From Caulobacteraceae bacterium (GTDB taxonomy: Bacteria > Pseudomonadota > Alphaproteobacteria > Caulobacterales > Caulobacteraceae), in contig JAIBAU010000003.1 of NCBI GenBank assembly GCA_019695035.1, positions 62,001-126,000 of the forward strand: 64,000 nt of DNA, written 5' to 3'. Positions 10,677 to 64,000 of this stretch are shown here, in pieces; positions within the stretch are counted from its first letter, which is position 1, and every line of letters begins with the position of its first letter. The notes under the pieces were generated by a model. It was given only the letters and a program-made list of their open reading frames with translations. It made no database searches and was not told where the DNA came from. The translations under genes were made by a program, and so were the position numbers.

Positions 10677-13022
10677 GTGGACAAAGCTGAAAGGGAAAAG
10701 CTGAGCGAAAGCGACGTCTGCGATCTGTTTATAACGCCAGCGATCGTCAACGCAGGCTGGGATCAGCTGCGACAGGTCAGGCGTGAAGTAACGCTTACTC
10801 CTGGACCAGTTGTTGTTCGCGGAAATCTATCATCGAGAAACAAAAAGAAGCGCAAGTTCGCGGACTACGTTCTGTCTTGGCAGCCTGGCTTGCCGGTGGC
10901 GATTATTGAAGCGAAAGACAACAAGCACGGCGTAAGCGACGGCTTACAGCAAGCTTTGGGCTATGCTGAGATTCTGAACCTTCCGACAGCCTTCAGTTCC
11001 AACGGCGATGGCTTCGCTCAGCACAACCGCGCGGCCGCTGAGGGCGAAGATACAGAAACCGCCCTGCCCATGGATGGTTTCCTGCCTCCTCAGGAGCTTT
11101 ATCTCCGCTACTGCCGCTTTCACGGGATCGCGCCAGAGCACGGGGCGCTGATCGAGCAGCCCTATTACGTCGACAGCGCCGGCAAAGAAGCGCGCTACTA
11201 CCAGATCGATGCCATCAACCGGACCATCGAAGCCATTGCGAAGGGAGATCGTCGGATCTTGCTGGTCATGGCAACGGGCACCGGCAAGACCTACACTACT
11301 TTCCAGATCATCTGGAGGCTTTGGAAGGGCGGGCAAGCGAAGCGCGTGCTGTTTCTCGCCGACCGCAACATCCTCGTTGATCAAACACTGGTGAACGACT
11401 TCAAGCCGTTCGGCCAGCACATGACCAAGGTGCGCAACCGCAAGATCGATCCCGCATACGAAATTCACCTTGGTCTGTATCAGGCGCTGACCGGACCTCA
11501 AGAAACCGACAAGATATTCAAGTCGGTGTCGCGCGACTTCTTCGACCTCGTCATTGTGGATGAATGCCACCGCGGTAGTGCGGCGGAGGACAGCGCGTGG
11601 CGCGAAATCCTCGACTATTTCGAAGGCGCGATTCAGATCGGCATGACCGCCACGCCGAAGGAGACCGAGTACGTCTCTAACATCACCTACTTCGGCGAAC
11701 CGGTTCACACCTACAGCTTGAAGCAGGGCATCGAGGATGGCTTTCTCGCGCCCTACAAGGTCATCCGCATCGACATCGACAAGGACTTGCTGGGCTGGAC
11801 CCCGCCAGCGGGCATGAAGGACGATCTCGGCAACGAGGTTGAGCAGCGCGAATACAACCGCTTGGACATGGACAGGGTGCTTGTCCTCAACCAGCGCACC
11901 AGGCTGGTCGCGGAACGCGTCATGCGATTCCTCAACGCCACGGACCCCATGTCGAAAACGATCATCTTCTGCGAGGATATTGACCACGCCGAGCGGATGC
12001 GCGCCGCCATCGTGAATGCGGCCGGCAAGATTGCGCGCGACAACCCGCGCTACGTCATGCGGATCACTGGTGACAGCATCGAGGGCAAGGCACAGCTCGA
12101 CAACTTCATCGACCCGGAGCAGCCCTTCCCCGTCATCGCCACGACGTCGCAGCTCTTGAGCACCGGCGTCGATGCCAAGACCTGTAAGCTGATCGTGCTC
12201 GATCGGACGATCACCTCCATGACGATGTTCAAGCAAATCATCGGCCGGGGCACCCGCATCGACGAGGATCACAACAAATATTTCTTCACGATCATGGACT
12301 TCAAGAAGGCGACCGAGCTGTTCCGCGATCCCGACTTCGACGGGGAGCCGGTGGTGATCTACGAGCCGGAGGACGATGACCCGCCGGTCCCGCCCGATCC
12401 CGACGATGGCGACCCTGGCGACGATGCCGATGACGAAGATGCCGGCGGCACGAAGCTGGTCGTGTCCGGCGTGCCTGTCCACATCATTGCCGAACGGATC
12501 GAATATGTCGGCAGCGACGGCAGCTTGATCACCGAAAGCTATCGCGAGTTCGCCAGGAAGGCGGTGTTGTCCGAATATCGCTCGCTGGATGAGTTCATCG
12601 CCAAATGGAATGCCAGCGACCGCAAGCAGGCGATCATTGCAGAGCTTGAAGAGCACGGTGTCGTCCTAGCCAATCTGCAAGCCGAAGTCGGCAAGGATGT
12701 GGGTGACTTCGATTTGCTCGCACATATCGCCTACGATCAGCCGCCACTCACCCGCCGGGAGCGCGCGAACAAGGTGCGCAAGCGCAACTATTTCGCCAAA
12801 TATGGCGAGCAGGCGCGGGCGGTACTGGAAGCCTTGCTCGACAAGTATGCCGATGAAGGCATTGAAACCATCGAAGACACCAAGGTGCTTCGCCTGCGCC
12901 CGTTCGATGGTATCGGCACCCCCATTGAAATCATAAAGGGTGCCTTCGGCGGCAAGGAGGCTTACGACGCCGCGCTGACCGAGCTTGAAGCCCAAATTTA
13001 CGGACGAGCGGCAAACGAATGA
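10677..13022 (+). CDS. hsdR: Type I restriction enzyme, R (translocase/endonuclease) subunit
   Basis: A 781-residue HsdR. The N-terminal nuclease domain has Asp63 (FADYVL) and Glu78-Ala-Lys80 (IIEAK), a PD-(D/E)xK arrangement, then a Gln-rich motif (LQQALGYAE). The motor has Walker A ATGTGKT (199-205), DECH at 295-298 and GMTATPKE, followed by RecA2 motifs (TTSQLLSTGVDAKT, IIGRGTRIDED). An acidic linker lies near residues 575-600 before the C-terminal assembly domain. It is shorter than EcoKI HsdR and looks like the EcoEI type. The start is GTG with GAGGG upstream. It overlaps hsdM by four bases. All catalytic motifs are intact. Confidence 0.93.
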   Translation: MDKAEREKLSESDVCDLFITPAIVNAGWDQLRQVRREVTLTPGPVVVRGNLSSRNKKKRKFADYVLSWQPGLPVAIIEAKDNKHGVSDGLQQALGYAEILNLPTAFSSNGDGFAQHNRAAAEGEDTETALPMDGFLPPQELYLRYCRFHGIAPEHGALIEQPYYVDSAGKEARYYQIDAINRTIEAIAKGDRRILLVMATGTGKTYTTFQIIWRLWKGGQAKRVLFLADRNILVDQTLVNDFKPFGQHMTKVRNRKIDPAYEIHLGLYQALTGPQETDKIFKSVSRDFFDLVIVDECHRGSAAEDSAWREILDYFEGAIQIGMTATPKETEYVSNITYFGEPVHTYSLKQGIEDGFLAPYKVIRIDIDKDLLGWTPPAGMKDDLGNEVEQREYNRLDMDRVLVLNQRTRLVAERVMRFLNATDPMSKTIIFCEDIDHAERMRAAIVNAAGKIARDNPRYVMRITGDSIEGKAQLDNFIDPEQPFPVIATTSQLLSTGVDAKTCKLIVLDRTITSMTMFKQIIGRGTRIDEDHNKYFFTIMDFKKATELFRDPDFDGEPVVIYEPEDDDPPVPPDPDDGDPGDDADDEDAGGTKLVVSGVPVHIIAERIEYVGSDGSLITESYREFARKAVLSEYRSLDEFIAKWNASDRKQAIIAELEEHGVVLANLQAEVGKDVGDFDLLAHIAYDQPPLTRRERANKVRKRNYFAKYGEQARAVLEALLDKYADEGIETIEDTKVLRLRPFDGIGTPIEIIKGAFGGKEAYDAALTELEAQIYGRAANE

Positions 13023-14500
13023 GCAATGTTTCAGGCGCGGTGAAGTCCATCCAGGACATCATGCGCAAGGATGTCGGCGTTGACGGCGATGCCCAGCGCA
13101 TCAGCCAGATGGTCTGGATGATCTTCCTCAAAATCTATGACGACCGCGAGGAGGAGCTGGAACTGACCGAGCCTGAGTTCCGCTCGCCCATCCCGGAGGA
13201 GTTCCGCTGGCGCAATTGGGCCAAGGACCGCGAGGGCATCACCGGCGAGGCGCTGGTCAAGTTCGTCGATGAACTTTTCTTCGCCCTGAAGAACAGCCTG
13301 CCCGCCATCGGTGAGATCGGCAGGCGCGCCCAGGTTATCCGCGACGTGTTCGAGGATACCTACAACTACATGAAATCCGGCACGCTGATGCGGCAGGTGA
13401 TCAACAAGATCAACGAGATCGACTTCAACAACACTCAAGACCGCCACACCTTTGGCGCGATCTACGAACAGATCTTGAAAGATCTGCAAAGCGCCGGGAA
13501 CGCGGGTGAGTTCTACACCCCGCGCGCCGTCACTCGGTTCATGATCGACCGGCTGGCACCCAGGCTCGATGAAATCGTGCTCGATCCCGCCTGCGGCACC
13601 GGCGGCTTCCTGGCCTGCGCCATCGACCACAAGCGCCAGTTCGTGAAATCGCCGGAGGATGAGGCGACGCTGGTGGCCAGCCTGCGCGGGGTCGAGAAGA
13701 AGGCGCTGCCGTATATGCTGTGCGTCACCAATATGATCCTGCATGGCATCGACACGCCAGAGGGCATCCGCCACGGCAACACGCTGGAAAAACCTTATCG
13801 CGACTATGGCGATCGGGACCGTGTGCCGGTGATCGCGACCAACCCGCCCTTCGGCGGCATGGAGCAGGACGGGATCGAGAGTAATTTCCCCGCCCATCTC
13901 CGCACCCGCGAAACCGCTGACCTCTTCATGGCGCTGATTATCAAGCTGCTGCGCAATGGCGGACGCGCGGGCGTGGTGCTGCCCGATGGCTTCCTTTTCG
14001 GCGAAGGCGTGAAAGCCACGCTTAAGCGCACGCTGTTGGAGGAATGCAACCTCCACACCATCGTCCGTCTGCCCAATGGCGTGTTCAATCCCTACACCGG
14101 GATCAAGACCAACCTGCTGTTCTTTACCAAGGGTACGCCCACCAAGCACATCTGGTTCTATGAACACCCCTATCCGCCGGGCGTCACCAGCTACAACAAG
14201 TCGCGCCCGATGCAGTTCGAGGAGTTTGCGGCGGAGCGAGAATGGTGGGGCGATGAGGCGGACGGCTTCAAGGCGCGTGTCGAGACCGAACAGGCTTGGC
14301 GCGTCAGCGCCGAGGAGGTTGATGCATCGGGCTTCAATCTTGACCGCAAGAACCCGCATATGCCCGACCGGGAGAGCCATGACCCCGATGAGCTGCTGGC
14401 CCAGTATGCTACCCAACAGGGCGAGATTCAGGGTTTGCGCGACCGGTTGAAGACGATCCTCGCCGATGCGCTGGCGGCCGGCGAGCGGGCCGACGCATGA
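13019..14500 (+). CDS. hsdM: Type I restriction-modification system, adenine methyltransferase subunit
   Basis: A 493-residue N6-adenine methyltransferase. Residues 1-150 form the helical HsdM N-terminal domain. The catalytic domain follows with GEFYTPRAV, the SAM-binding motif DPACGTGGF (189-197) and the catalytic NPPFGG (275-280). It methylates the recognition site chosen by HsdS and is part of the M2S core. Start and stop overlap hsdR and hsdS by four bases each, so the three subunits are made together. All core motifs are intact. Confidence 0.94.
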   Translation: MSNVSGAVKSIQDIMRKDVGVDGDAQRISQMVWMIFLKIYDDREEELELTEPEFRSPIPEEFRWRNWAKDREGITGEALVKFVDELFFALKNSLPAIGEIGRRAQVIRDVFEDTYNYMKSGTLMRQVINKINEIDFNNTQDRHTFGAIYEQILKDLQSAGNAGEFYTPRAVTRFMIDRLAPRLDEIVLDPACGTGGFLACAIDHKRQFVKSPEDEATLVASLRGVEKKALPYMLCVTNMILHGIDTPEGIRHGNTLEKPYRDYGDRDRVPVIATNPPFGGMEQDGIESNFPAHLRTRETADLFMALIIKLLRNGGRAGVVLPDGFLFGEGVKATLKRTLLEECNLHTIVRLPNGVFNPYTGIKTNLLFFTKGTPTKHIWFYEHPYPPGVTSYNKSRPMQFEEFAAEREWWGDEADGFKARVETEQAWRVSAEEVDASGFNLDRKNPHMPDRESHDPDELLAQYATQQGEIQGLRDRLKTILADALAAGERADA

Positions 14501-16125
14501 GCGACATTGCCGCGCTAGTCAGCGATCACCTCGACATCTGGACGTCGGCCGTCGAGCGCAAGAACGGCGGCGGTAAGCGGATGAGCCTCTACGGGGTCGA
14601 GCGGCTGCGGGCGCTGATCTTCGATCTCGCCGTGCGGGGAAAGTTGGTGCCCCAGGATACGAGCGACGGCGATGCGACTACCTTGCTAAAGTCGATCGCG
14701 AACGAAAGGCGCAATTACGTTCCAAGCCGTGGTTTGAAGGTGCCAAAGCTTTCCGAGCAGTCGCGTCGCGATCCGTTCGATCTTCCGGACAACTGGGCAT
14801 GGACCACAGTGGGAATGACCGGCGTCATCTTCTCAGGTAACAGCATAAATGAAGACACTCGAGCGCGGCTAGCTTCGACAGAGGCAGGGCGTCCATTCGT
14901 TGCAACGAAAGATGTAGGCTATGGTGGAGATCCCATCACCTACGACACGGGCTTGCACGTATCCGAGCATGACCCCTCCTTCGTGTGGGCGCGTCCTGCA
15001 ACAGTCTTCATATGTGCAGAAGGCGGTAGCGCCGGTCGAAAGATGGCGCTTTCAGACCGCGAGATTTGTTTCGGCAACAAGCTGATAGCGAACGAGACTT
15101 GGGGCGGAGTAGACCCGAGCTTTGTCCTTTTGGTGTATCGGTCTGACTTCTTCTATACCGCGTTTGCCCTTGAGATGACCGGCATTATTGGCGGCATATC
15201 GCGTGCGAAGTTTTTGGCCTTACCGTTTCCGCTCCCCCCCCTCGCCGAACAGCGCCGGATTGCGGCGAAAGTGCATGAGTTGATGACGCTGTGCGACGCG
15301 CTTGAGCGAGAGAGCGCGGCAGCGCTGACTGCGCATCAAACGCTGGTCGAAACCCTGCTCGCCACCGTCGCGAACAGCGCCGACGCGGCCGATCTCGCGA
15401 CCCATTGGTCCTGCCTCCGAACCCATTTCGATACCCTCTTCACCACCGAAGCCAGCGTAGATTCCCTAGCTTCGGCGCTAGTCGAATTGGCACTGCGAGG
15501 CTTCTTGACGAATGGTTCGACCGCGCCAGCCACCCAAAAATCTCTCCTCGAGCTTCTCGTTTTCGGGCCAAAAAATGGATTCTCTCCGAGGTCTGTAGAC
15601 CATGATACCGGAATAAAGAGTTTGTCTCTTTCTGCCACAACCCGTGGCCAATTTGATGAACGCCATTACAAGTACGTTGACATAGAGCGGCCAGAGGAAA
15701 GCTCGGAGCTTTGGATTAAGAATGGAGACTTGCTTGTACAGCGGGCCAACTCGATAGAGTATGTTGGTGTAGCGGCCCTGTACGAAGGGTCAGATAATTG
15801 CTTCATCTATCCTGATCTTATGATGAAAATCAGGTTTCGCGCCGACATCGTTCCGAAATATGCCGCGCTATGTCTGAACTCCGGACCGGTTCGCAGATAC
15901 TTACGTTCACGTGCATCTGGCACGTCTGGCAGCATGCCCAAAATCAACCAGTCCACGCTTCTCAGCGTGACTATTCCTGTGCCAGACACACATGAACAGC
16001 TGCGCATCGTCGCTGCCGTCAACGCTCTAAAGTCTCTCTGCGATGAACTGAAAGCATGCATTGCCGATGCCGGGCAAACACAAATGCGCCTTGCCGACGC
16101 CATCGTCGAACGCGCTGCTGCCTAA
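14497..16125 (+). CDS. hsdS: Type I restriction-modification system, specificity subunit
   Basis: A 542-residue HsdS with two target-recognition domains, roughly residues 75-250 and 350-515. Each is followed by a helical conserved region (PLAEQRRIAAKVHELMTLCD and THEQLRIVAAVNALKSLCDE). It sets the bipartite DNA site. Both recognition domains use visibly more A/T than the rest of the operon, as expected for parts exchanged between strains. The recognition sequence cannot be read from the protein. The reading frame is intact, so the system should be functional. Confidence 0.92.
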   Translation: MSDIAALVSDHLDIWTSAVERKNGGGKRMSLYGVERLRALIFDLAVRGKLVPQDTSDGDATTLLKSIANERRNYVPSRGLKVPKLSEQSRRDPFDLPDNWAWTTVGMTGVIFSGNSINEDTRARLASTEAGRPFVATKDVGYGGDPITYDTGLHVSEHDPSFVWARPATVFICAEGGSAGRKMALSDREICFGNKLIANETWGGVDPSFVLLVYRSDFFYTAFALEMTGIIGGISRAKFLALPFPLPPLAEQRRIAAKVHELMTLCDALERESAAALTAHQTLVETLLATVANSADAADLATHWSCLRTHFDTLFTTEASVDSLASALVELALRGFLTNGSTAPATQKSLLELLVFGPKNGFSPRSVDHDTGIKSLSLSATTRGQFDERHYKYVDIERPEESSELWIKNGDLLVQRANSIEYVGVAALYEGSDNCFIYPDLMMKIRFRADIVPKYAALCLNSGPVRRYLRSRASGTSGSMPKINQSTLLSVTIPVPDTHEQLRIVAAVNALKSLCDELKACIADAGQTQMRLADAIVERAAA

Positions 16126-16128
16126 GCC

Positions 16129-17256
16129 ATGGCCACGGCACCCGCCCTGCTAAGTTGGTGCGAGGAAGACCGCCATCGCAAATACAGCGATCATCGCGAC
16201 TTCAACGAGTGGTTTGATGGCGCGGAAGGAGTCGAAGCGCGAGAGTCTGCCAAGGTCGCTGGGCTAGCCAGCCCAAGCAAGGCCTTCTTCGTCGGCGACC
16301 GCGAGGGCTATGGCCTCGCCATCGAGGAATGGCGACAGAGGCAGCGAGCTCAGTGGTTGAGCCGCGAAATCCTCATCGAGCTATGCGCCGACGAGCACTG
16401 GGCCGACCGCAATGCCACGCGCTTCGATCAGCTTTGTGATCAGATCGCGCTCGACAATGTGGTGCCATTCATCGGTGCCGGGCTATCGCAGCCGGGCGGC
16501 TTCCCGACATGGAAGGACCATCTGCGCCAGCAAGGGCGCACCGCTGGGTTGCCGCATGATGATGTCGAGGCGATGCTTGCCGCCGGAGAGTACGAGAGCA
16601 TCGTTCACGCCATCGAAGACAAGCTGGGACAGCCGGTCTTCAGGCAGGAATTGCGCGATGCCTTCGCCCGCAATGGCACCATCCCGCCTGCCGATTATCT
16701 GATCGCCGAGCTATTCTCCGATACGCTGATCACCACCAACTATGATCGCCTGCTCGAGCAGGCATTCGACGTCGGCGGCGGGAGACCGGTGCAGGTGTTG
16801 ACGCCCGCGAGTATTCTCACGCCGCCCGATGCCGGAAGCGTGACGATACTCAAGTTGCACGGCGACATTGCCGCGCCCGGCGGGTGCATCCTCAGCCGCA
16901 ACCAGTATGCCGCTGCCTATGGCGATGGTGCCATTGATCTGGGCCTGCCGATTCCGCAAGCGCTCGACTACTACTTCCGCAACTCGAGCCTGCTGTTCCT
17001 GGGGTGCAGTCTCAATCAGGATCGAACGGTTCAGGTCTTCGGGTCGATCATGGATCGCGCCCTGGCAGAATCGGCGGACCTGCCGCAGCACTTCGCCCTC
17101 GAGCAATCGCCAAGCGATGAGGCGGCCCTGATCGCGCGCAACGCGGCGCTGCTGCGCATCGGCGTCACCCCGATCTGGTTCCCGGCAGGCGCGTTCGAGT
17201 TCATCGAAGAAATTCTCCGACTTGCGCGAAATGAGATGCATTTTCGGCGTGAGTAG
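16129..17256 (+). CDS. SIR2-domain protein, candidate antiphage NADase
   Basis: A 375-residue protein starting three bases after the hsdS stop. Residues about 1-100 match no domain I recognise. Residues 104-350 are a SIR2-like fold with the NAD-binding GAGLS (116-120), TTNYDRLLE with Asn205, LHGD with His244, and a late FLGCSLNQDRT. These are the positions used by defence NADases of the ThsA/DSR kind. There is no membrane segment. By context it is the fourth gene of the hsd operon. It could be a suicide effector that depletes NAD when restriction fails or is inhibited, but no trigger is known and activity is inferred. Protein deacetylase activity is less likely because the zinc-binding Cys set is not seen. 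Confidence 0.82.
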   Translation: MATAPALLSWCEEDRHRKYSDHRDFNEWFDGAEGVEARESAKVAGLASPSKAFFVGDREGYGLAIEEWRQRQRAQWLSREILIELCADEHWADRNATRFDQLCDQIALDNVVPFIGAGLSQPGGFPTWKDHLRQQGRTAGLPHDDVEAMLAAGEYESIVHAIEDKLGQPVFRQELRDAFARNGTIPPADYLIAELFSDTLITTNYDRLLEQAFDVGGGRPVQVLTPASILTPPDAGSVTILKLHGDIAAPGGCILSRNQYAAAYGDGAIDLGLPIPQALDYYFRNSSLLFLGCSLNQDRTVQVFGSIMDRALAESADLPQHFALEQSPSDEAALIARNAALLRIGVTPIWFPAGAFEFIEEILRLARNEMHFRRE

Positions 17257-32577: not shown

Positions 32578-32967
32578 GATCAGACGGCCGGGCGGTCGCG
32601 GCGGGCTTCGGCCTGTCGAGGAAAGTCCGGGCTCCACGGCGAAAAGGCGGCGGGTAACGCCCGCCCGGGGTGACCCGAGGGATAGCGCCACAGAAAGCAA
32701 ACCGCCCCGAAAGCCCTTGTGGCTCAAAGGGTAAGGGTGAAAGGGTGGGGTAAGAGCCCACCGGGCCGCTGGCAACAGGGGCCGCATGGCAAGCCCCGCC
32801 TGGAGCAAGACCGAATAGGGACGCCGCGCCGCGCAAGCGGCAGGGCTCGCCGGCCCGAGGCGTCCGGGTAGGTCGCGAGAACCGTCCAGCGATGGGCGGT
32901 CCAGAGGAATGACCGTCACGGGCCGCAAGGCCTTCGACAGAACCCGGCTTACAGGCCGTCTGATCCT
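32578..32967 (+). ncRNA. rnpB: RNase P RNA (type A)
   Basis: Outer stem P1 is formed by GATCAGACGGCC (32578-32589) and GGCCGTCTGATC (32954-32965). Inside are the conserved blocks GAGGAAAGTCCGGGCTCC, CACAGAAA, GGGTAAGGGTGAAA and GGAGCAAGACCGAATAGG. Size of about 390 bases and block order are those of alphaproteobacterial type A RNase P RNA, the catalytic RNA that matures tRNA 5' ends. Exact ends are estimated from P1. Confidence 0.95.
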
Positions 32968-45154: not shown

Positions 45155-46585
45155 ATGACGCCTCGATCCAAGCTTCGCCCCATCCCGTTCGACATCGGGC
45201 CGGTCCACTTCGTGGGCATCGGCGGGATCGGCATGAGCGGCATCGCCGAGATCATGCTGAAGCTGGGCTATGCGATCCAGGGCTCGGACGCCAAGGCCAG
45301 CGCCAACACCCGGCGGCTGGAAGGCCTCGGCGCCAAGGTCTTCATCGGCCACGACGCCGCCCACATCGATGGCGCGTCGGCGGTGGTCTATTCGACCGCG
45401 GTCAAGCCCGACAATCCCGAGTACATGGCCGCGCGCGAGCGGCGCATTCCGCTGGTGCGCCGGGCGGAAATGCTGGCCGAACTGATGCGGCTGCAGTTCT
45501 CGGTGGCCGTCGGCGGCACCCACGGCAAGACCACCACCACCTCGATGGTCGCCGCCCTGCTGGACGCCGGAGGCCTGGACCCCACGGTCGTCAATGGCGG
45601 GATCATCAACGCCTACGGCACCAACGCCAAGGTCGGGGACGGGGACTGGATCGTGGTCGAGGCCGACGAGTCCGACGGCTCGTTCCTGCGGCTGAAGTCC
45701 ACCGTGGCCATCGTCACCAACATCGACGCCGAGCACCTCGACCATTGGGGCGACTTCGAGCAGGTGAAGAAGGGCTTCCGCGACTTCGTCGAAAACATCC
45801 CCTTCTACGGTTTCGCCGCGGTCTGCGTGGACCACCCCGAGGTGCGGGCTCTGGCGGCCACGGTCGAGAACCGGCGTCTCGTCACCTACGGCATCAATCC
45901 CCAGGCCGAGGTCCGCGCCGACAAGGTCGAGATGGCCGCCGACGGCGCCTGGTTCGACGCGGTGATCAACCCGCTGGAAGGCGAGGAAATCCGCATCGAC
46001 CGTCTGCATCTGCCGATGCCCGGCTGGCACAACGTCTCGAACGCCCTGGCCGCCATCGCCGTGGCGCGCGAGCTGGGCGTCGACGCCGACGGCATCCGGG
46101 CGGGCCTGTCGACTTTCGGCGGCGTGCGCCGGCGCTTCACCACCACCGGCGAGGCCAACGGGGTGCGCGTCGTCGACGACTACGGCCACCACCCGGTCGA
46201 GATCGCCGCCGTGCTGAAGGCCGCCCGCCAGGTCGCCGGGGGCAAGGTCGTCGCGGTAGTCCAGCCGCACCGCTACACGCGCCTGCGGGACCTGATGGAA
46301 GAATTCTCGGCCTGCATGAGCGACGCGGACACCGTGGTGGTCGCCGACGTCTATCCGGCCGGCGAACCGCCGATCGAAGGGGTGGACCGGGACGCCCTGG
46401 CCGAGGGCATTCGCCGCTACGGCCATCGCCGCGTACTGACCCTGAGCGGACCTGACGCCCTGGCGGCCCTGATCGCCGAAGAGACCCAGGCGGGCGACCT
46501 GGTGGTGTGCCTGGGCGCCGGAGACATCACCCAATGGGCCTACGCCCTGCCCGAGGAGCTGGCCGCCCTGGGGGGCGCGGCGTGA
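45155..46585 (+). CDS. murC: UDP-N-acetylmuramate:L-alanine ligase
   Basis: A 476-residue Mur ligase with [54 protein letters not shown] and [14 protein letters not shown]. It adds the first residue, L-Ala. The ATG at 45155 is preferred to a GTG at 45116, which would add 13 non-family residues; the ribosome-binding site is weak for either. Its stop overlaps murB. Confidence 0.94.
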
Positions 46586-47487
46586 GCGCCTGGATCGACA
46601 GGCTGCCCGACGTTCGCGGCAAGCTGGTGCGCGACGCCGACCTGGCCCCCTTCACCTGGTTCCGGGTCGGCGGCAAGGCCGACCTGCTGTTCCTGCCGGC
46701 TGACCACAACGACCTGGCCGACTTCCTGAGGGGCCTGCCCGAGGACGTGCCGCTGACGGTGCTGGGCGTCGGCTCCAACGTCATCGTCCGCGACGGCGGT
46801 GTCGAGGGCGTGGTGATCCGGCTGATGGGCAAGGCCTTCGCCTATCTCGGCCTCGACGAGGACGGCCACATCGTCGCCGACGCCGGCGTGCTGGATTCCA
46901 TGGTCGCCCGGTTCGCGGCGAAATCAGGCCTCGCGGGGCTCGAGTTCTACGCCGGCATTCCGGGCACCATTGGCGGCGCCCTGACCATGAACGCCGGCTG
47001 CTACGGACGCGAGACCAAGGACGTGCTGGTGCGGGCCTGGGGTTACGACCGCAAGGGCGAGATGCACATCCTGTCCAACCGCGACTTCGGCTACACCTAT
47101 CGCCACTCGGAAGTGCCCGAGGGATCGATCATCTGGGTGCAGGCGACCTTCCGGGGAGAGCCGGACGATCCGGCCGCGGTGCAGGCCCGCATCGACGAGA
47201 TCACCAACCGCCGCGAAACGACCCAGCCCATCCGCGAGAAGACCGGCGGCTCGACGTTCAAGAACCCGCCCGGCCATTCCTCCTGGAAGCTGGTGGATGA
47301 GGCGGGCTGGCGAGGCAGGCTGCACGGCGGCGCCAAGTTTTCGGAGCTGCACGCCAACTTCATGATCAACACCGGCGAGGCCACGGCGAAGGACCTCGAG
47401 GACCTGGGCGAGCGGGTCCGCGCCGACGTGAAGGCCCGGACCGGCGTCCAGCTGGACTGGGAGATCAAGCGGATCGGGCGGCCCTGA
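46582..47487 (+). CDS. murB: UDP-N-acetylenolpyruvoylglucosamine reductase
   Basis: A 301-residue flavoenzyme (type II MurB). FAD-binding segments are [28 protein letters not shown] and [29 protein letters not shown] and the catalytic C-terminal [13 protein letters not shown] follow. It reduces the enolpyruvyl group to give UDP-MurNAc. GTG start overlapping the murC stop. Confidence 0.95.
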
Positions 47488-47536: not shown

Positions 47537-47551
47537 TTAACCAACCGTCAA
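47537..47551 (+). promoter_or_regulatory. CtrA-like box before the kinase-like gene
   Basis: TTAA-N7-TCAA in the murB/kinase intergenic region, 40 bases before the TTG start. One base from the CtrA consensus pattern. Candidate only. Confidence 0.38.
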
Positions 47552-47590: not shown

Positions 47591-49192
47591 TTGCGCCTCA
47601 AGACCTGGCTGCTTTTCGGCGGTCTCTTCGCCCTCGTCGCCGCGCTTTGCGCGGTGAGCCTGGGCTTCTTCCGATCCCACTCCATCGAGGCCGCCGTCTG
47701 GCCCGCCAACGCGATCGTGCTGGCGATCCTGCTGCTGGCGCTGAGAACCTCGCGCGAACGGGCCATGGGCATTGGCGTCACGCTCCTGGCCATGCTGGGC
47801 GCAAACCTGGCCTTCGGCGTGCCGGCCCCGCTGGCGGTGGGCTTCTCGGTCGCCAACGGCCTCGAGATCGGGGTGGCGGCCTGGTTTCTCCGCGGCCTCA
47901 GGATGCCGCTGTCCGATCCGCGTGACTACCTGAGGTTCGCAGTCGGGGCGGTGGTGCTGGGGCCGCTCTGTTCGACGGTCTTCGCGGCGATGGCCATGGG
48001 CGCCGCCGGGGTCGCCAGCGGCGCCGACCTGATCGCCTTCATGGGCCGGTGGTTCCGGGCGGACGCCCTCGCGATGGCGGTTGCGGCGCCCTTCGCCTTG
48101 TCGATCCCCGCCATGAAGTCCAGCTTCCCGATGGACCGCAATTGGGTGCGCGGCGCGCTCGCGCAGGCGCTGGTGCTGATCTTCCCGATCTGCGCCTGTC
48201 TGCCCCTGCCCACGCCGTTCCCGTTTTCGGTGTTCATCTTCCCGGCGGTGGCCATCGCCGTGTTCGCCAACCGTGACATCGGCGGCCTGATCGCCGTCAC
48301 CAGCGTGGCCGTGGTGCTGACCGTCGGCGCCGCGCTGGGGGCGGGACCCGCGGCCCGCGCGACCCAGGTGGGTGCGGACGGCATGCTGATGGTGCAGGCC
48401 CTGCTGGCCGCTCTGGTGGCGACCGTCCACCCGCTGTCCGCGGTGCTCCGCCGACTCGACGCATACGCCGCCGAGGCGGAGGCCCGGCGCCGCCAGGCCG
48501 AGACCGCCTCCGCCTCGAAGACCCGGTTCCTGACCGCCATGAGCGAGGAGTTGCGCTCGCCGCTGACCGGCGTGCTGACCGTGGCCGAACTGGTCAAAAG
48601 CGGCCGCCTGGGCGCGCTCACCCCCAAGCAGGCCGAGCTGATGACCCAGCTGGTGGAGAGCGGCGAGCAGATGGAGATCCTGACCCGCAAGCTGGGCGAC
48701 GCGGCGGCCCTCCAGTCCGGCGAGCGCGCCCTGCCGGGCGAGGCCTTCAACCTGCCCGGCCTGCTGGTCGGCGCGGTGACGGCGGCCCGATTCCGCTCCC
48801 GTCGCGACTGCGACATCCGGCTCGGCGTGGAGAATGACGCCCTCGAGGCCTGGGGCGATCCCCAACGCCTGCGCCAGGCGCTGATCCGGCTGCTCGTCGA
48901 CGCCTCTCGCTTCTCGGCCAAGCCCGGCCTGGTCCAGATTTCCGCCTTCGAGGCCAACGACGGCCGCGTGCGCATCCACATCGAGGACGACGGCGACGGC
49001 GTGCCCCTGGAACGCCTGCTGGAACTGAAGTCCGCCTCGAGCCAAACCTCCGGTTCGGGCGTCGGACTGGGCCTCACCCGAGACATCATGCGCCTGCTCG
49101 GCGGAGACCTGGGGGTGGAGCCCGGCAACCTCGGCGGGGCGCGGGTCTGGATCGAGCTGCAGACGCCGCGCGCGGCGCGCCGCGCGGCCTGA
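47591..49192 (+). CDS. MASE1-like membrane protein with degenerate histidine-kinase core
   Basis: A 533-residue protein. Residues 1-280 form about eight membrane helices like a MASE1 sensor (AAVWPANAIVLAILLLAL). A short coiled linker follows, then a HisKA-like helix and an ATPase domain (HIEDDGDGV near 463-471; GSGVGLGL at 488-495). The phospho-acceptor position reads MSEELRSPL, so Glu319 stands where His is required, and the N-box Asn is Asp437 with Arg433 four residues before. It may therefore bind nucleotide without phosphorylating itself. TTG start with GGAG 7 bases ahead. The place between murB and ddl suggests a link with cell-wall or division control. Confidence 0.82.
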   Translation: MRLKTWLLFGGLFALVAALCAVSLGFFRSHSIEAAVWPANAIVLAILLLALRTSRERAMGIGVTLLAMLGANLAFGVPAPLAVGFSVANGLEIGVAAWFLRGLRMPLSDPRDYLRFAVGAVVLGPLCSTVFAAMAMGAAGVASGADLIAFMGRWFRADALAMAVAAPFALSIPAMKSSFPMDRNWVRGALAQALVLIFPICACLPLPTPFPFSVFIFPAVAIAVFANRDIGGLIAVTSVAVVLTVGAALGAGPAARATQVGADGMLMVQALLAALVATVHPLSAVLRRLDAYAAEAEARRRQAETASASKTRFLTAMSEELRSPLTGVLTVAELVKSGRLGALTPKQAELMTQLVESGEQMEILTRKLGDAAALQSGERALPGEAFNLPGLLVGAVTAARFRSRRDCDIRLGVENDALEAWGDPQRLRQALIRLLVDASRFSAKPGLVQISAFEANDGRVRIHIEDDGDGVPLERLLELKSASSQTSGSGVGLGLTRDIMRLLGGDLGVEPGNLGGARVWIELQTPRAARRAA

Positions 49193-49288
49193 TCGAGCTC
49201 GCTTGCGGCCGGCGCAGGCGCGACGGCCATTACCGGTTCTCAACTTCCGGCGCGTTTGCTATCGCCGTCTCGTCCTCGGAGTTTCGCC

Positions 49289-50227
49289 ATGGCCGCCCCC
49301 CTCGCCGGTAAGCACGTCGCCGTCCTGCTGGGAGGCCTGTCGTCGGAACGCGAGGTGTCCCTGGTTTCAGGCGAGAGCTGCGCGGAGGCGCTGGAGCGGC
49401 TGGGCGCGCGGGTGACGCGCATCGACGCCGGCCGCGACTTGGCGGCTCGCCTGTCCGAGGTCAGGCCCGACGTCGCCTTCAACGCCCTGCACGGCGCCTG
49501 GGGCGAGGACGGCTGCGTCCAGGGCGTGCTTGAAACCCTGGCCATTCCCTACACGCACTCCGGCGTGCTGGCCTCGGCGCTGGCCATGGACAAGGCCAAG
49601 TCCAAGTCGGTCATGGCCGCGGCCGGCGTGGCGGTTCCCGGCGGGGGCCTGTTCAACCGCTTCGAGGTCGCTCGCGGCCACGTCATCGAGCCGCCCTATG
49701 TGGTGAAGCCGAACGCCGAAGGCTCCTCTGTCGGCGTATTCATCGTGAGGGAGGGCGCCAACGCTCCGCCGCGCGAGCTGGCGCGGGAAAGCTGGACCTT
49801 CGGCGAGGAGGTGATGGTCGAGCCCTACGTCGCCGGCAAGGAGCTGGCGGTGGCGGTGCTGCACGAGAAGGAAGGGCCCCGCGCCCTGGCCGTGACCGAG
49901 ATCATCGCGGCCACCGGCTTCTACGACTACGACGCCAAGTACGGCGAAGGCGGCTCCCGCCACGAGGTGCCGGCTAAGATTCCGGCCAGCGTGGCCAAGG
50001 AGGCCATGCGCCTGGCCGAACGCGCCCACGCCGCGCTTGGTTGCCGAGGCCTTACCCGTTCCGACTTTCGTTATGACGATATTAAGGACGTCCTCGTTCT
50101 TCTGGAGGTCAACACCCAGCCCGGCATGACGCCGACCTCGCTCGCCCCCGAGCAGGCCGGCCATGTGGGAATAGGGTTCGATGATCTGGTCCGGTGGATC
50201 GTGGAGGACGCTTCATGCCCGCGATAG
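49289..50227 (+). CDS. ddl: D-alanine:D-alanine ligase
   Basis: A 312-residue ATP-grasp enzyme with [32 protein letters not shown]-binding [13 protein letters not shown], the catalytic [13 protein letters not shown] ending. It makes the D-Ala-D-Ala used by MurF. ATG at 49289 with GGAG ahead. The 3' end overlaps ftsQ by 13 bases and carries a likely promoter. Confidence 0.95.
50071..50085 (+). promoter_or_regulatory. CtrA-like box for ftsQA inside ddl
   Basis: TTAT-N7-TTAA, one base off the CtrA pattern, lies 130 bases before the ftsQ start. The codons here (CGT TAT GAC GAT ATT AAG) end in T or A unusually often for this genome, as if held by a DNA signal. In Caulobacter crescentus ftsQA transcription depends on CtrA. 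Confidence 0.5.
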
Positions 50228-52527: not shown

Positions 52528-52546
52528 ATTGTATACAGTATGCAAT
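52528..52546. promoter_or_regulatory. Inverted repeat over the GntR gene start
   Basis: ATTGTATACAGTATGCAAT is an imperfect palindrome of the AT-rich kind bound by FCD-type GntR regulators. The start codon (52540-52542) lies inside it, so the product could block its own transcription. Confidence 0.55.
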
Positions 52547-53208
52547 TTTCGCCCCACCTGGCGGACCGGCCGAACCTGAGCGACAGCCTCGCCGATGCGG
52601 TTCGGACCATGATCGTGGACGGACGGCTGGCCGCGGGCGCGCGCGTCAATGAGGTCCACCTGGCCGCGGCGCTGAAGGTCAGCCGCACCCCGCTTCGCGA
52701 GGCCCTCTCCCGCCTGACCGCCGAGGGCGCGCTCCAGGCCGTCCCCCGCAGGGGCTACTTCGTGGCGCCGCTGACGGCGTCCGAACTGGAGCAACTCTAC
52801 GACCTGCGGCCGCTGCTGGACCCCGAGGCGCTGCGGCTGGCCGGGGTTCCCGGTCCGGGACGCCTGCAGACGCTGGACGCGATCAACGCCCGCCTGGCTC
52901 GTGAATCCACGCCCGAGAAGATCGTGGCCCTCGATGACGTCTGGCACCTCGAGCTCATCGCCGGCTGCCCCAACCGGGTGCTGGTGGAGATGATCGAGCA
53001 GATCATGCGGCGCACACGGCGCTACGAGCTGGCCCTGATGCGCGAGGCGCCTCCGGCTGAAAAGGCGGTGGATCACCACGCCGCGGTCACCGCCGCCCTG
53101 CGGTCCGGCGATCTCGACGGCGCCTGCGCGGCGTTGAAAGCCAACCTGACGCACGGCCGCGAGCCTCTGCTCGCCTGGCTGCGCGATCGCGAGCGCCGTC
53201 GGGCGTGA
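52540..53208 (+). CDS. GntR-family regulator with FCD domain
   Basis: A 222-residue regulator. Residues about 10-75 are the winged helix (ALKVSRTPLREALSRLTAEGAL). Residues about 85-215 are the helical FCD ligand domain, with metal/ligand candidates in LDDVWHLELIAGC and KAVDHHAAVTAAL. Such proteins usually sense an organic acid and control adjacent genes. The stop overlaps or abuts the following serine-hydrolase gene, its likely target. It separates ftsA from ftsZ. Confidence 0.88.
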   Translation: MQFSPHLADRPNLSDSLADAVRTMIVDGRLAAGARVNEVHLAAALKVSRTPLREALSRLTAEGALQAVPRRGYFVAPLTASELEQLYDLRPLLDPEALRLAGVPGPGRLQTLDAINARLARESTPEKIVALDDVWHLELIAGCPNRVLVEMIEQIMRRTRRYELALMREAPPAEKAVDHHAAVTAALRSGDLDGACAALKANLTHGREPLLAWLRDRERRRA

Positions 53209-53222
53209 TGGGAGTCTCCCCT

Positions 53223-54962
53223 ATGAAATCCGCAATCTTCGCCCTCGCGGTCCTGGCGGGCCTCGGGCTGTCAGGCGCCGTTGCGGCCCGGGATCCGGCT
53301 CCCACGGTGCGCGACCTGGAAGGGCTGTGGGAGGCGAGCGCCTTCTACGGGCCGGAGTTGCGCGGAGCGGTGACGGTCGAGCGCACGCCGCTGGGCTGGC
53401 GCGCGGACCTGAAGGGGCGGCTGGCGAGCGGCTCGGTCGGCGCCGACGGGCGGGTGCTGTTCGATTTCGGCGAGAACCGCAGCCTCAGCTTCGACCCGGC
53501 GTCGCCGGACGGAGCGTTCTGGCGGCAGGGCGCGGGCGGCTACGGCTACAACTTCCTCACCCCGGTCAGCCTTGCGGCCGAGGCGCGAGGGCGCTGGCGC
53601 GGCGAGGTGCGGCCGCTGGACGACGTGCTGACCCTCTACCTGCCGGTGCGGGTCGGCCCGGACGGAGCAGCGGCCTTCATTCGCAATCCTGAAGCCAATG
53701 TCGGGCGCTTCCTCAAGATCAGCCGGGTCGAGCTGGCGGACGGCGAAGTGCGCCTGATCGGCCGCCCCTTCGGCGCGCGTGAGGACGAGATCGTCGGCCG
53801 CGGGCCCTACGATCCGGACAACGACACGGTGTCGATCTATATCCGGCGGGTCGGCCAGGGCTATGTGTTCCACCGGGTGGGCGAGGGCCGGCCGACCGGC
53901 TTCCATCCGCGCGTGGGCGGTTCACCCTACCGCTACGCCCCGCCGCCGGCCCGCAGCGACGGCTGGCCGGTGGGGACGCTGGAGGAGGCCGGCCTCGACC
54001 GCGCAGCGATCGAGCGGTTCGTCCAGCGTCTCATCGACCTGCCGATGGACTCCAACGGCGCCTCGGACGTGCATGCGGTGCTGATCGCCCGGCGCGGGCG
54101 GCTGGTGCTGGAGGAGTATTTCCACGGCTTCGACCGCGACCGTCTGCACGATACCCGGTCGGCGGCCAAGAGCATCGCATCGGTGCTGATGGGCGCGGCC
54201 ATGCAGGGCGGCGTCCGCCTCGGGCCGTCGACGCCGGTATACCGGACCCTGGGCCACGCGACCGAGGACGCCAAGAAGCAGGCGATGACCGCCGAGCACC
54301 TGCTGCTGCAGACCTCCGGCTTCTTCTGCGACGATTCCAACGACGAGGCGCCCGGCAGCGAGGACCGGATGCAGCAGCAGCGCGGGCAGCCCGACTGGTA
54401 TCGCTACGCCCTGGACCTGCCGATGCTGAACGCGCCGGGCGCGGCGGCGCCGGTCTACTGCTCGGCCCAGCCGAACCTGCTGGGGGCGGTGATCGCGCGG
54501 ACGGCCGGGCAGCCCCTGGAGGCGCTGTTCCGGGACCGGATCGCCCGGCCCATGGATATCCCGCGTTACGCCATGAACCTGCAGCCGACGGGCGAACCCT
54601 ACATGGGCGGAGGGCTCTACCTGACGCCGCGCGACTTCCTGAAGTTCGCCCAGCTGATGGAGGACGGCGGCGCCTGGCGGGGCCGGCGGATCGTCTCCCT
54701 CGACTGGGCCCGGCGCTCGACCTCGCCGCTCGAGACCTTCGGGGACCGCCAGTACGGTTACCTGTGGTGGTCGCAGACCTATCCCTACAAGGGCCGCCAG
54801 GTGCGCGCCTTCTATGCGGCCGGGAACGGCGGCCAGATCGCCATGGCCGTCCCGGAGCTGGAGCTGGTGATCGGCTTCATGGGCGGCAACTACTCCGATC
54901 CGGCCCTCTACATTCCCCAGCGCAGCTACATTCCGGAGTTCATCCTGCCGGCGGTGCAGTAA
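53223..54962 (+). CDS. Exported serine hydrolase (class C beta-lactamase/PBP-like)
   Basis: A 579-residue protein with a signal peptide (SAIFALAVLAGLGLSGAVAA). Residues about 30-235 are a beta-rich domain that I did not recognise. Residues 255-579 are a beta-lactamase/D-Ala-D-Ala-carboxypeptidase fold with Ser313-Ala-Ala-Lys316, Tyr412-Cys-Ser414 in place of the usual Tyr-x-Asn, and a late GNGGQ. It may act on peptidoglycan peptides, esters or other amides in the periplasm. The ATG at 53223 has GGAG in front and begins the signal peptide. It follows the GntR gene closely. Confidence 0.83.
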   Translation: MKSAIFALAVLAGLGLSGAVAARDPAPTVRDLEGLWEASAFYGPELRGAVTVERTPLGWRADLKGRLASGSVGADGRVLFDFGENRSLSFDPASPDGAFWRQGAGGYGYNFLTPVSLAAEARGRWRGEVRPLDDVLTLYLPVRVGPDGAAAFIRNPEANVGRFLKISRVELADGEVRLIGRPFGAREDEIVGRGPYDPDNDTVSIYIRRVGQGYVFHRVGEGRPTGFHPRVGGSPYRYAPPPARSDGWPVGTLEEAGLDRAAIERFVQRLIDLPMDSNGASDVHAVLIARRGRLVLEEYFHGFDRDRLHDTRSAAKSIASVLMGAAMQGGVRLGPSTPVYRTLGHATEDAKKQAMTAEHLLLQTSGFFCDDSNDEAPGSEDRMQQQRGQPDWYRYALDLPMLNAPGAAAPVYCSAQPNLLGAVIARTAGQPLEALFRDRIARPMDIPRYAMNLQPTGEPYMGGGLYLTPRDFLKFAQLMEDGGAWRGRRIVSLDWARRSTSPLETFGDRQYGYLWWSQTYPYKGRQVRAFYAAGNGGQIAMAVPELELVIGFMGGNYSDPALYIPQRSYIPEFILPAVQ

Positions 54963-55237
54963 CGCGGTCGCCGCTGGTCCTCGCCGGGGACCGGCGGGTC
55001 CGGCGGCGAATGCTGGGTCCTATTGTTGCGCTTCACTCAAAGCGTCACAGCAACGTCGCCGTCTATCCACAGACCGCGACCCCATGACTCAAAGAAAACC
55101 CTTACCGAAAAGCCGACTCACGCTAGTCGGTTAACGGACCGTTAGGGAAGCTGGTTGTCCTATTAACCCTTCCCGAGCGCCGCCTTTCGCATAAGGCGCA
55201 AGCGGTTCGAGGGGTCTTGGGTCCAAGAGGTCGGTTA
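54963..55237. promoter_or_regulatory. ftsZ promoter region with DnaA-, GANTC- and CtrA-like sites
   Basis: This 275-base stretch has no gene. It holds CTATCCACA (55063-55071, one base off a DnaA box), GACTC at 55086-55090 and 55115-55119 (CcrM-type sites), TTAA-N7-TTAG (55131-55145, CtrA-like) and TTAACC at 55163. The same set of regulators (DnaA, GcrA/CcrM, CtrA) is known to time ftsZ in Caulobacter crescentus. Confidence 0.6.
55131..55145 (+). promoter_or_regulatory. CtrA-like box of ftsZ
   Basis: TTAA-CGGACCG-TTAG, about 93 bases before the ftsZ start; seven of the eight conserved positions of TTAA-N7-TTAA match. Confidence 0.6.

Positions 55238-59490: not shown

Positions 59491-64000
<4,510 letters not shown>

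Follow-up and report, generated by a model that had tools for sequence, protein, structure and literature searches.

A membrane pseudo-histidine kinase between murB and ddl in the dcw cluster of a Caulobacteraceae bacterium

What is a histidine-kinase-like gene that does not encode the phospho-acceptor histidine doing among genes of the dcw cluster, and how could its product signal? We address this question for a gene in a 64,000-nucleotide stretch of DNA (hereafter ‘the window’; positions 62,001 to 126,000 of contig JAIBAU010000003.1) from a Caulobacteraceae bacterium. The features on which the analysis rests, in window coordinates, are as follows.

46507–47487, plus strand: murB, the upstream neighbour (NCBIfam)
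47591–49192, plus strand: MASE1-HisKA-HATPase_c pseudo-histidine kinase, 533 amino acids, TTG start (translation and Pfam)
47606–48454, plus strand: MASE1 membrane sensor domain, residues 6–288 (Pfam PF05231, 51.9 bits)
48518–48718, plus strand: DHp/HisKA domain, residues 310–376 (Pfam PF00512, 35.2 bits)
48545–48547, plus strand: codon GAG for Glu319, at the position of the phospho-acceptor histidine (codon reading, alignment)
48854–49165, plus strand: degenerate HATPase_c domain, residues 422–525 (Pfam, 54.5 bits; orthologue alignment)
48899–48901, plus strand: codon GAC for Asp437, at the position of the N-box asparagine (codon reading, alignment)
49256–50227, plus strand: ddl, the downstream neighbour (NCBIfam)

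The matches to MASE1 (a membrane-embedded domain), HisKA and HATPase_c each exceed their curated Pfam cut-offs, and the TTG start is backed by the N termini of orthologues in the alignment. The reading frame is free of stops, with a GC3 of 0.90–0.97 along its length compared to an intergenic GC content of 0.64. Family searches identified murF, ftsW, murG, murC and murB on the upstream side and, on the downstream side, ddl, ftsQ and ftsA, with ftsZ further on at 55217; the ORFs between murF and ftsW lie where mraY and murD usually stand and are named by position only. These neighbours confirm the placement inside the dcw cluster, between murB and ddl, that was proposed in a first-pass annotation. 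No receiver gene is present among the annotated dcw neighbours. A scan for sigma-70 promoters found nothing, and the single terminator-like stem is at chance level. The gap between murB and the pseudo-kinase gene contains a sequence (TTAACCAACCGTCAA, 47537–47551, plus strand) that corresponds to a CtrA box (TTAA-N7-TTAA) with one mismatch and is not conserved at the orthologous loci. Further along the cluster, a GntR/FCD regulator gene and a gene for a protein with a beta-lactamase fold separate ftsA and ftsZ (52540–54962, plus strand), neither of the two genes having been found near ftsA in a relative, genome G008.

Inspection of the translated catalytic motifs indicated losses well beyond the acceptor residue. 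The H-box reads MSEELRSPL (within FLTAMSEELRSPL; Glu319 is numbered with the TTG codon as residue 1) and the N-box reads RLLVDASRF, so that a functional HisKA kinase's acceptor histidine and N-box asparagine are replaced by Glu319 and Asp437; the GAG and GAC codons bear out both substitutions as first annotated. The accompanying statement that the G-boxes remain holds for G1 (DxGxG, here DDGDG) and G2 (GxGxG, here SGSGVGLGL), but it missed that the F-box (FxxF) and approximately seven residues of the ATP lid are gone relative to the orthologues. The whole DHp domain (residues 310–376) contains no histidine, and a second DHp histidine acting as a substitute acceptor was rejected for that reason. 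The assignment as a pseudo-kinase is therefore well supported, and we infer that autophosphorylation by this protein would be impossible. The docking face of DHp helix 1 (RSPLTGV..VAEL) is retained in the alignment. Among the 30 best HisKA domains of the genome, the acceptor position is histidine in 28, tyrosine in one and glutamate in one, the last being the pseudo-kinase itself. A DivL-like protein with a tyrosine H-box (SYELRTPL) is encoded elsewhere in the same genome (locus L145, G000:C11:57907-58104). For the cytoplasmic part, AlphaFold2 run on the single sequence gave a model too poor for use (mean pLDDT 48).

Such a reading could in principle come from an artefact of sequencing or assembly, or from the choice of a wrong start or frame. 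Conversion of histidine to glutamate requires two base changes from CAC or CAT, which excludes a single sequencing error; several independent motif losses fall within one intact ORF, and the same glutamate is found in another genome (G226, below). Nothing was found in favour of this explanation, and we regard it as having almost no chance of being correct. It is also very improbable that the protein performs an altered phosphotransfer, in which a nucleotide-binding ATPase half phosphorylates some other protein or the other protomer of a heterodimer. The retained DxGxG and GxGxG motifs and the 54.5-bit HATPase_c match are compatible with that idea, but the N-box asparagine (a Mg site) is replaced by aspartate, the F-box is absent along with part of the lid, and the G226 protein has no nucleotide motifs.

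The origin of the gene was examined in a set of 390 genomes of the family, in which the genus of the window genome is represented by one genome. Matches to the pseudo-kinase at E ≤ 1e-55 occur in only seven of the 390, a patchy distribution, and six of those seven (from the window, G003, G024, G008, G012 and G226) lie in the murB-ddl slot; the surroundings of the remaining copy, in G260, yielded no dcw genes. In domain order and in locus the window protein belongs to this MASE1-HisKA family of the dcw cluster. The aligned proteins of G003, G024, G008, G012 and G260 read SHEIRSPL in the H-box and have their N and G boxes intact, and the first four of these, from three genera, occupy the murB-ddl slot. 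The copy from G226, a genome of another genus, sits at the same locus and reads GEELRSPL; it lacks the N-box asparagine and the G1 and G2 glycine patterns, so that its ATPase domain is more degraded than that of the window protein. A search of genome contigs with the pseudo-kinase protein alone returned distant kinases only. One paralogue (L002, 32% identity) has a normal histidine and is flanked by thiE and aldolase genes; no receiver gene was recognised beside it, and it therefore gives no hint about a partner.

The first-pass annotation had considered that homologues with a normal histidine at this position would point to a recent loss. Such homologues do exist at the locus, in the four genomes and three genera named above, and given their intact N and G boxes the ancestor would most simply have been a canonical MASE1 kinase, present in the murB-ddl slot in the ancestor of several related genera, with the loss of histidine being derived. 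To that extent the objection applies. Its other half, that the loss is a private and recent accident, does not, since the same glutamate is present at the same locus in G226.

Whether glutamate arose once or twice was addressed by tree comparisons. In a full-length tree the two Glu proteins are sisters (support 97/96), and they remain grouped when the H-box columns are removed (92/91). Forcing either of them to join the G003/G024 pair was marginally rejected (p-AU ~0.05). A tree from MASE1 alone did not resolve the grouping (16% of bootstraps), a tree from MASE1 plus DHp gave the pair support of 40/59, and in the dcw gene tree the genera form a polytomy. The pairing of the two Glu proteins could be an effect of long-branch attraction. 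On these sequence comparisons a single origin of glutamate is favoured.

The constraint on each domain bears on a more serious alternative, that a dispensable kinase is in slow decay, having lost its histidine once its pathway was no longer needed, with its catalytic domain eroding and the gene heading for loss. For MASE1, the window and G226 proteins have terminal branches of 0.65 and 1.16, respectively, compared to 0.98–1.37 for the His types G008, G012 and G260; for DHp plus CA the corresponding values are 1.22 and 3.8, compared to 0.54–0.91 in the same His types. MASE1 identities are 28–42% throughout, in His and Glu types, and CA identities are 46–56% among the His types (leaving out the near-identical G003/G024 pair), 33–44% for the window protein and 24–30% for G226. 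The DHp core has also drifted, as its identity between Glu types and others (40–57%) falls below the range among His types (56–71%). In the His types the transmitter shows stronger conservation than MASE1, a pattern that is weakened or reversed in the Glu types. Decay would account for the nearly erased catalytic domain of G226 and for a CA region whose first and second codon positions diverge as much as the third between the two Glu genes (0.54/0.50/0.48 for positions 1/2/3). It would also account for the absence of the gene from most members of genus g3, where the other sampled genomes have the murB-ddl locus with no MASE1 kinase; in G164, the sister of G226 in the dcw-gene tree, a 1.4-kb gap between murB and ddl contains no kinase remnant. 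Against decay, both Glu genes are intact, stop-free ORFs with a GC3 of ~0.9 (intergenic GC 0.64), MASE1 is evolving normally in both, and both have the identical glutamate and a conserved RSPLTGV docking face. The pattern fits a release of catalytic constraint with the constraint on MASE1 sensing kept in both proteins, and early decay would match it less well than a loss of catalysis with the sensor kept. We consider decay unlikely, if still to be taken seriously.

The reading that we prefer, at a probability of roughly 0.58, is that the protein is a catalytically dead sensor, descended from the ancestral canonical MASE1 kinase of the murB-ddl slot, that signals by docking in the manner of DivL and LovK. 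The residues for phosphate transfer have been lost, while the sequence retains MASE1, the helices of the DHp dimer and the receiver-docking face; the protein therefore probably signals by binding other proteins and not enzymatically. The missing histidine and retained docking face would be compatible with a DivL-like mode, with putative docking of a receiver. A lipid, metabolite or protein signal at MASE1 would alter the DHp dimer, and the altered dimer would bind a partner, either a receiver domain or another kinase, and so change the phosphorylation of that partner, as with DivL or with LovK in its unphosphorylated form. Glu319 may favour the dead state; that it mimics a phosphorylated histidine, as first annotated, is a bare possibility. 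Nucleotide signalling, the other mode envisaged at first, is unlikely to be a conserved function because the G226 Glu protein has lost its ATP-binding motifs. A role in envelope sensing is putative, with gene position as its sole link.

DivL has neither kinase nor phosphatase activity, yet its DHp domain binds DivK~P (PMC4211667). The window protein resembles DivL of Caulobacter in combining HisKA and HATPase_c, in the replacement of the acceptor histidine, in its DHp domain as a (here predicted) docking platform and in a Caulobacter-like gene background, as judged from gene content (the DivL-like protein and the dcw gene order). It differs in being encoded by a separate gene and in having MASE1, a glutamate and further catalytic losses; the tyrosine H-box and PAS sensors that mark a DivL orthologue are not those of this protein. 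LovK, which is LOV-based, has a histidine in its wild-type form and belongs to HWE/HisKA_2; the likeness is to a histidine-kinase scaffold that signals without phosphorylation, as proposed for the window protein. LovK(H180A) is active though unphosphorylated (PMC6530869). MASE1 of E. coli DgcE is a membrane signal-input domain at which an activating protein docks (PMC6510439), although the output of DgcE is a diguanylate cyclase and not a kinase. The canonical murB-ddl kinases (G003, G024, G008 and G012) are orthologous by locus and sequence and share the domain order, but their H, N, F and G boxes are intact.

A search of the literature available to the analysis found no paper on a pseudo-kinase in the murB-ddl slot. 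The protein would be a second type of pseudo-histidine kinase beside DivL in these bacteria, and one with a traceable origin, as one locus carries, across related genera, canonical versions, a partly dead one and one almost without its ATPase. This series would allow a direct test of what a scaffold retains after catalysis is lost, and of selection for glutamate. A broader proposal, that a MASE1 pseudo-kinase lineage fixed glutamate, progressively lost its ATPase and was retained among the dcw genes as a pure sensor-scaffold linking a membrane signal to wall or division control without phosphate chemistry, is rather doubtful; if a tie to division or wall synthesis were established, the protein would be a non-catalytic sensor within a core wall operon.

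Within the family, the murB-ddl slot itself varies by genus (loci L060–L079), containing a MASE1 kinase, a peptidase-like gene (M28-type as judged by eye from its sequence, not by family search), unrelated genes or almost nothing. Elsewhere in the window, a region of low GC content (10677–17256, plus strand; 57–65%, with the minimum at 14–16 kb, compared to ~70%) carries the type I restriction-modification genes hsdR, hsdM and hsdS and, after them, a gene for a SIR2-domain relative of ThsA-like defence proteins; it is probably an acquired defence island. A bacterial RNase P class A RNA gene is located at 32580–32967 on the plus strand.
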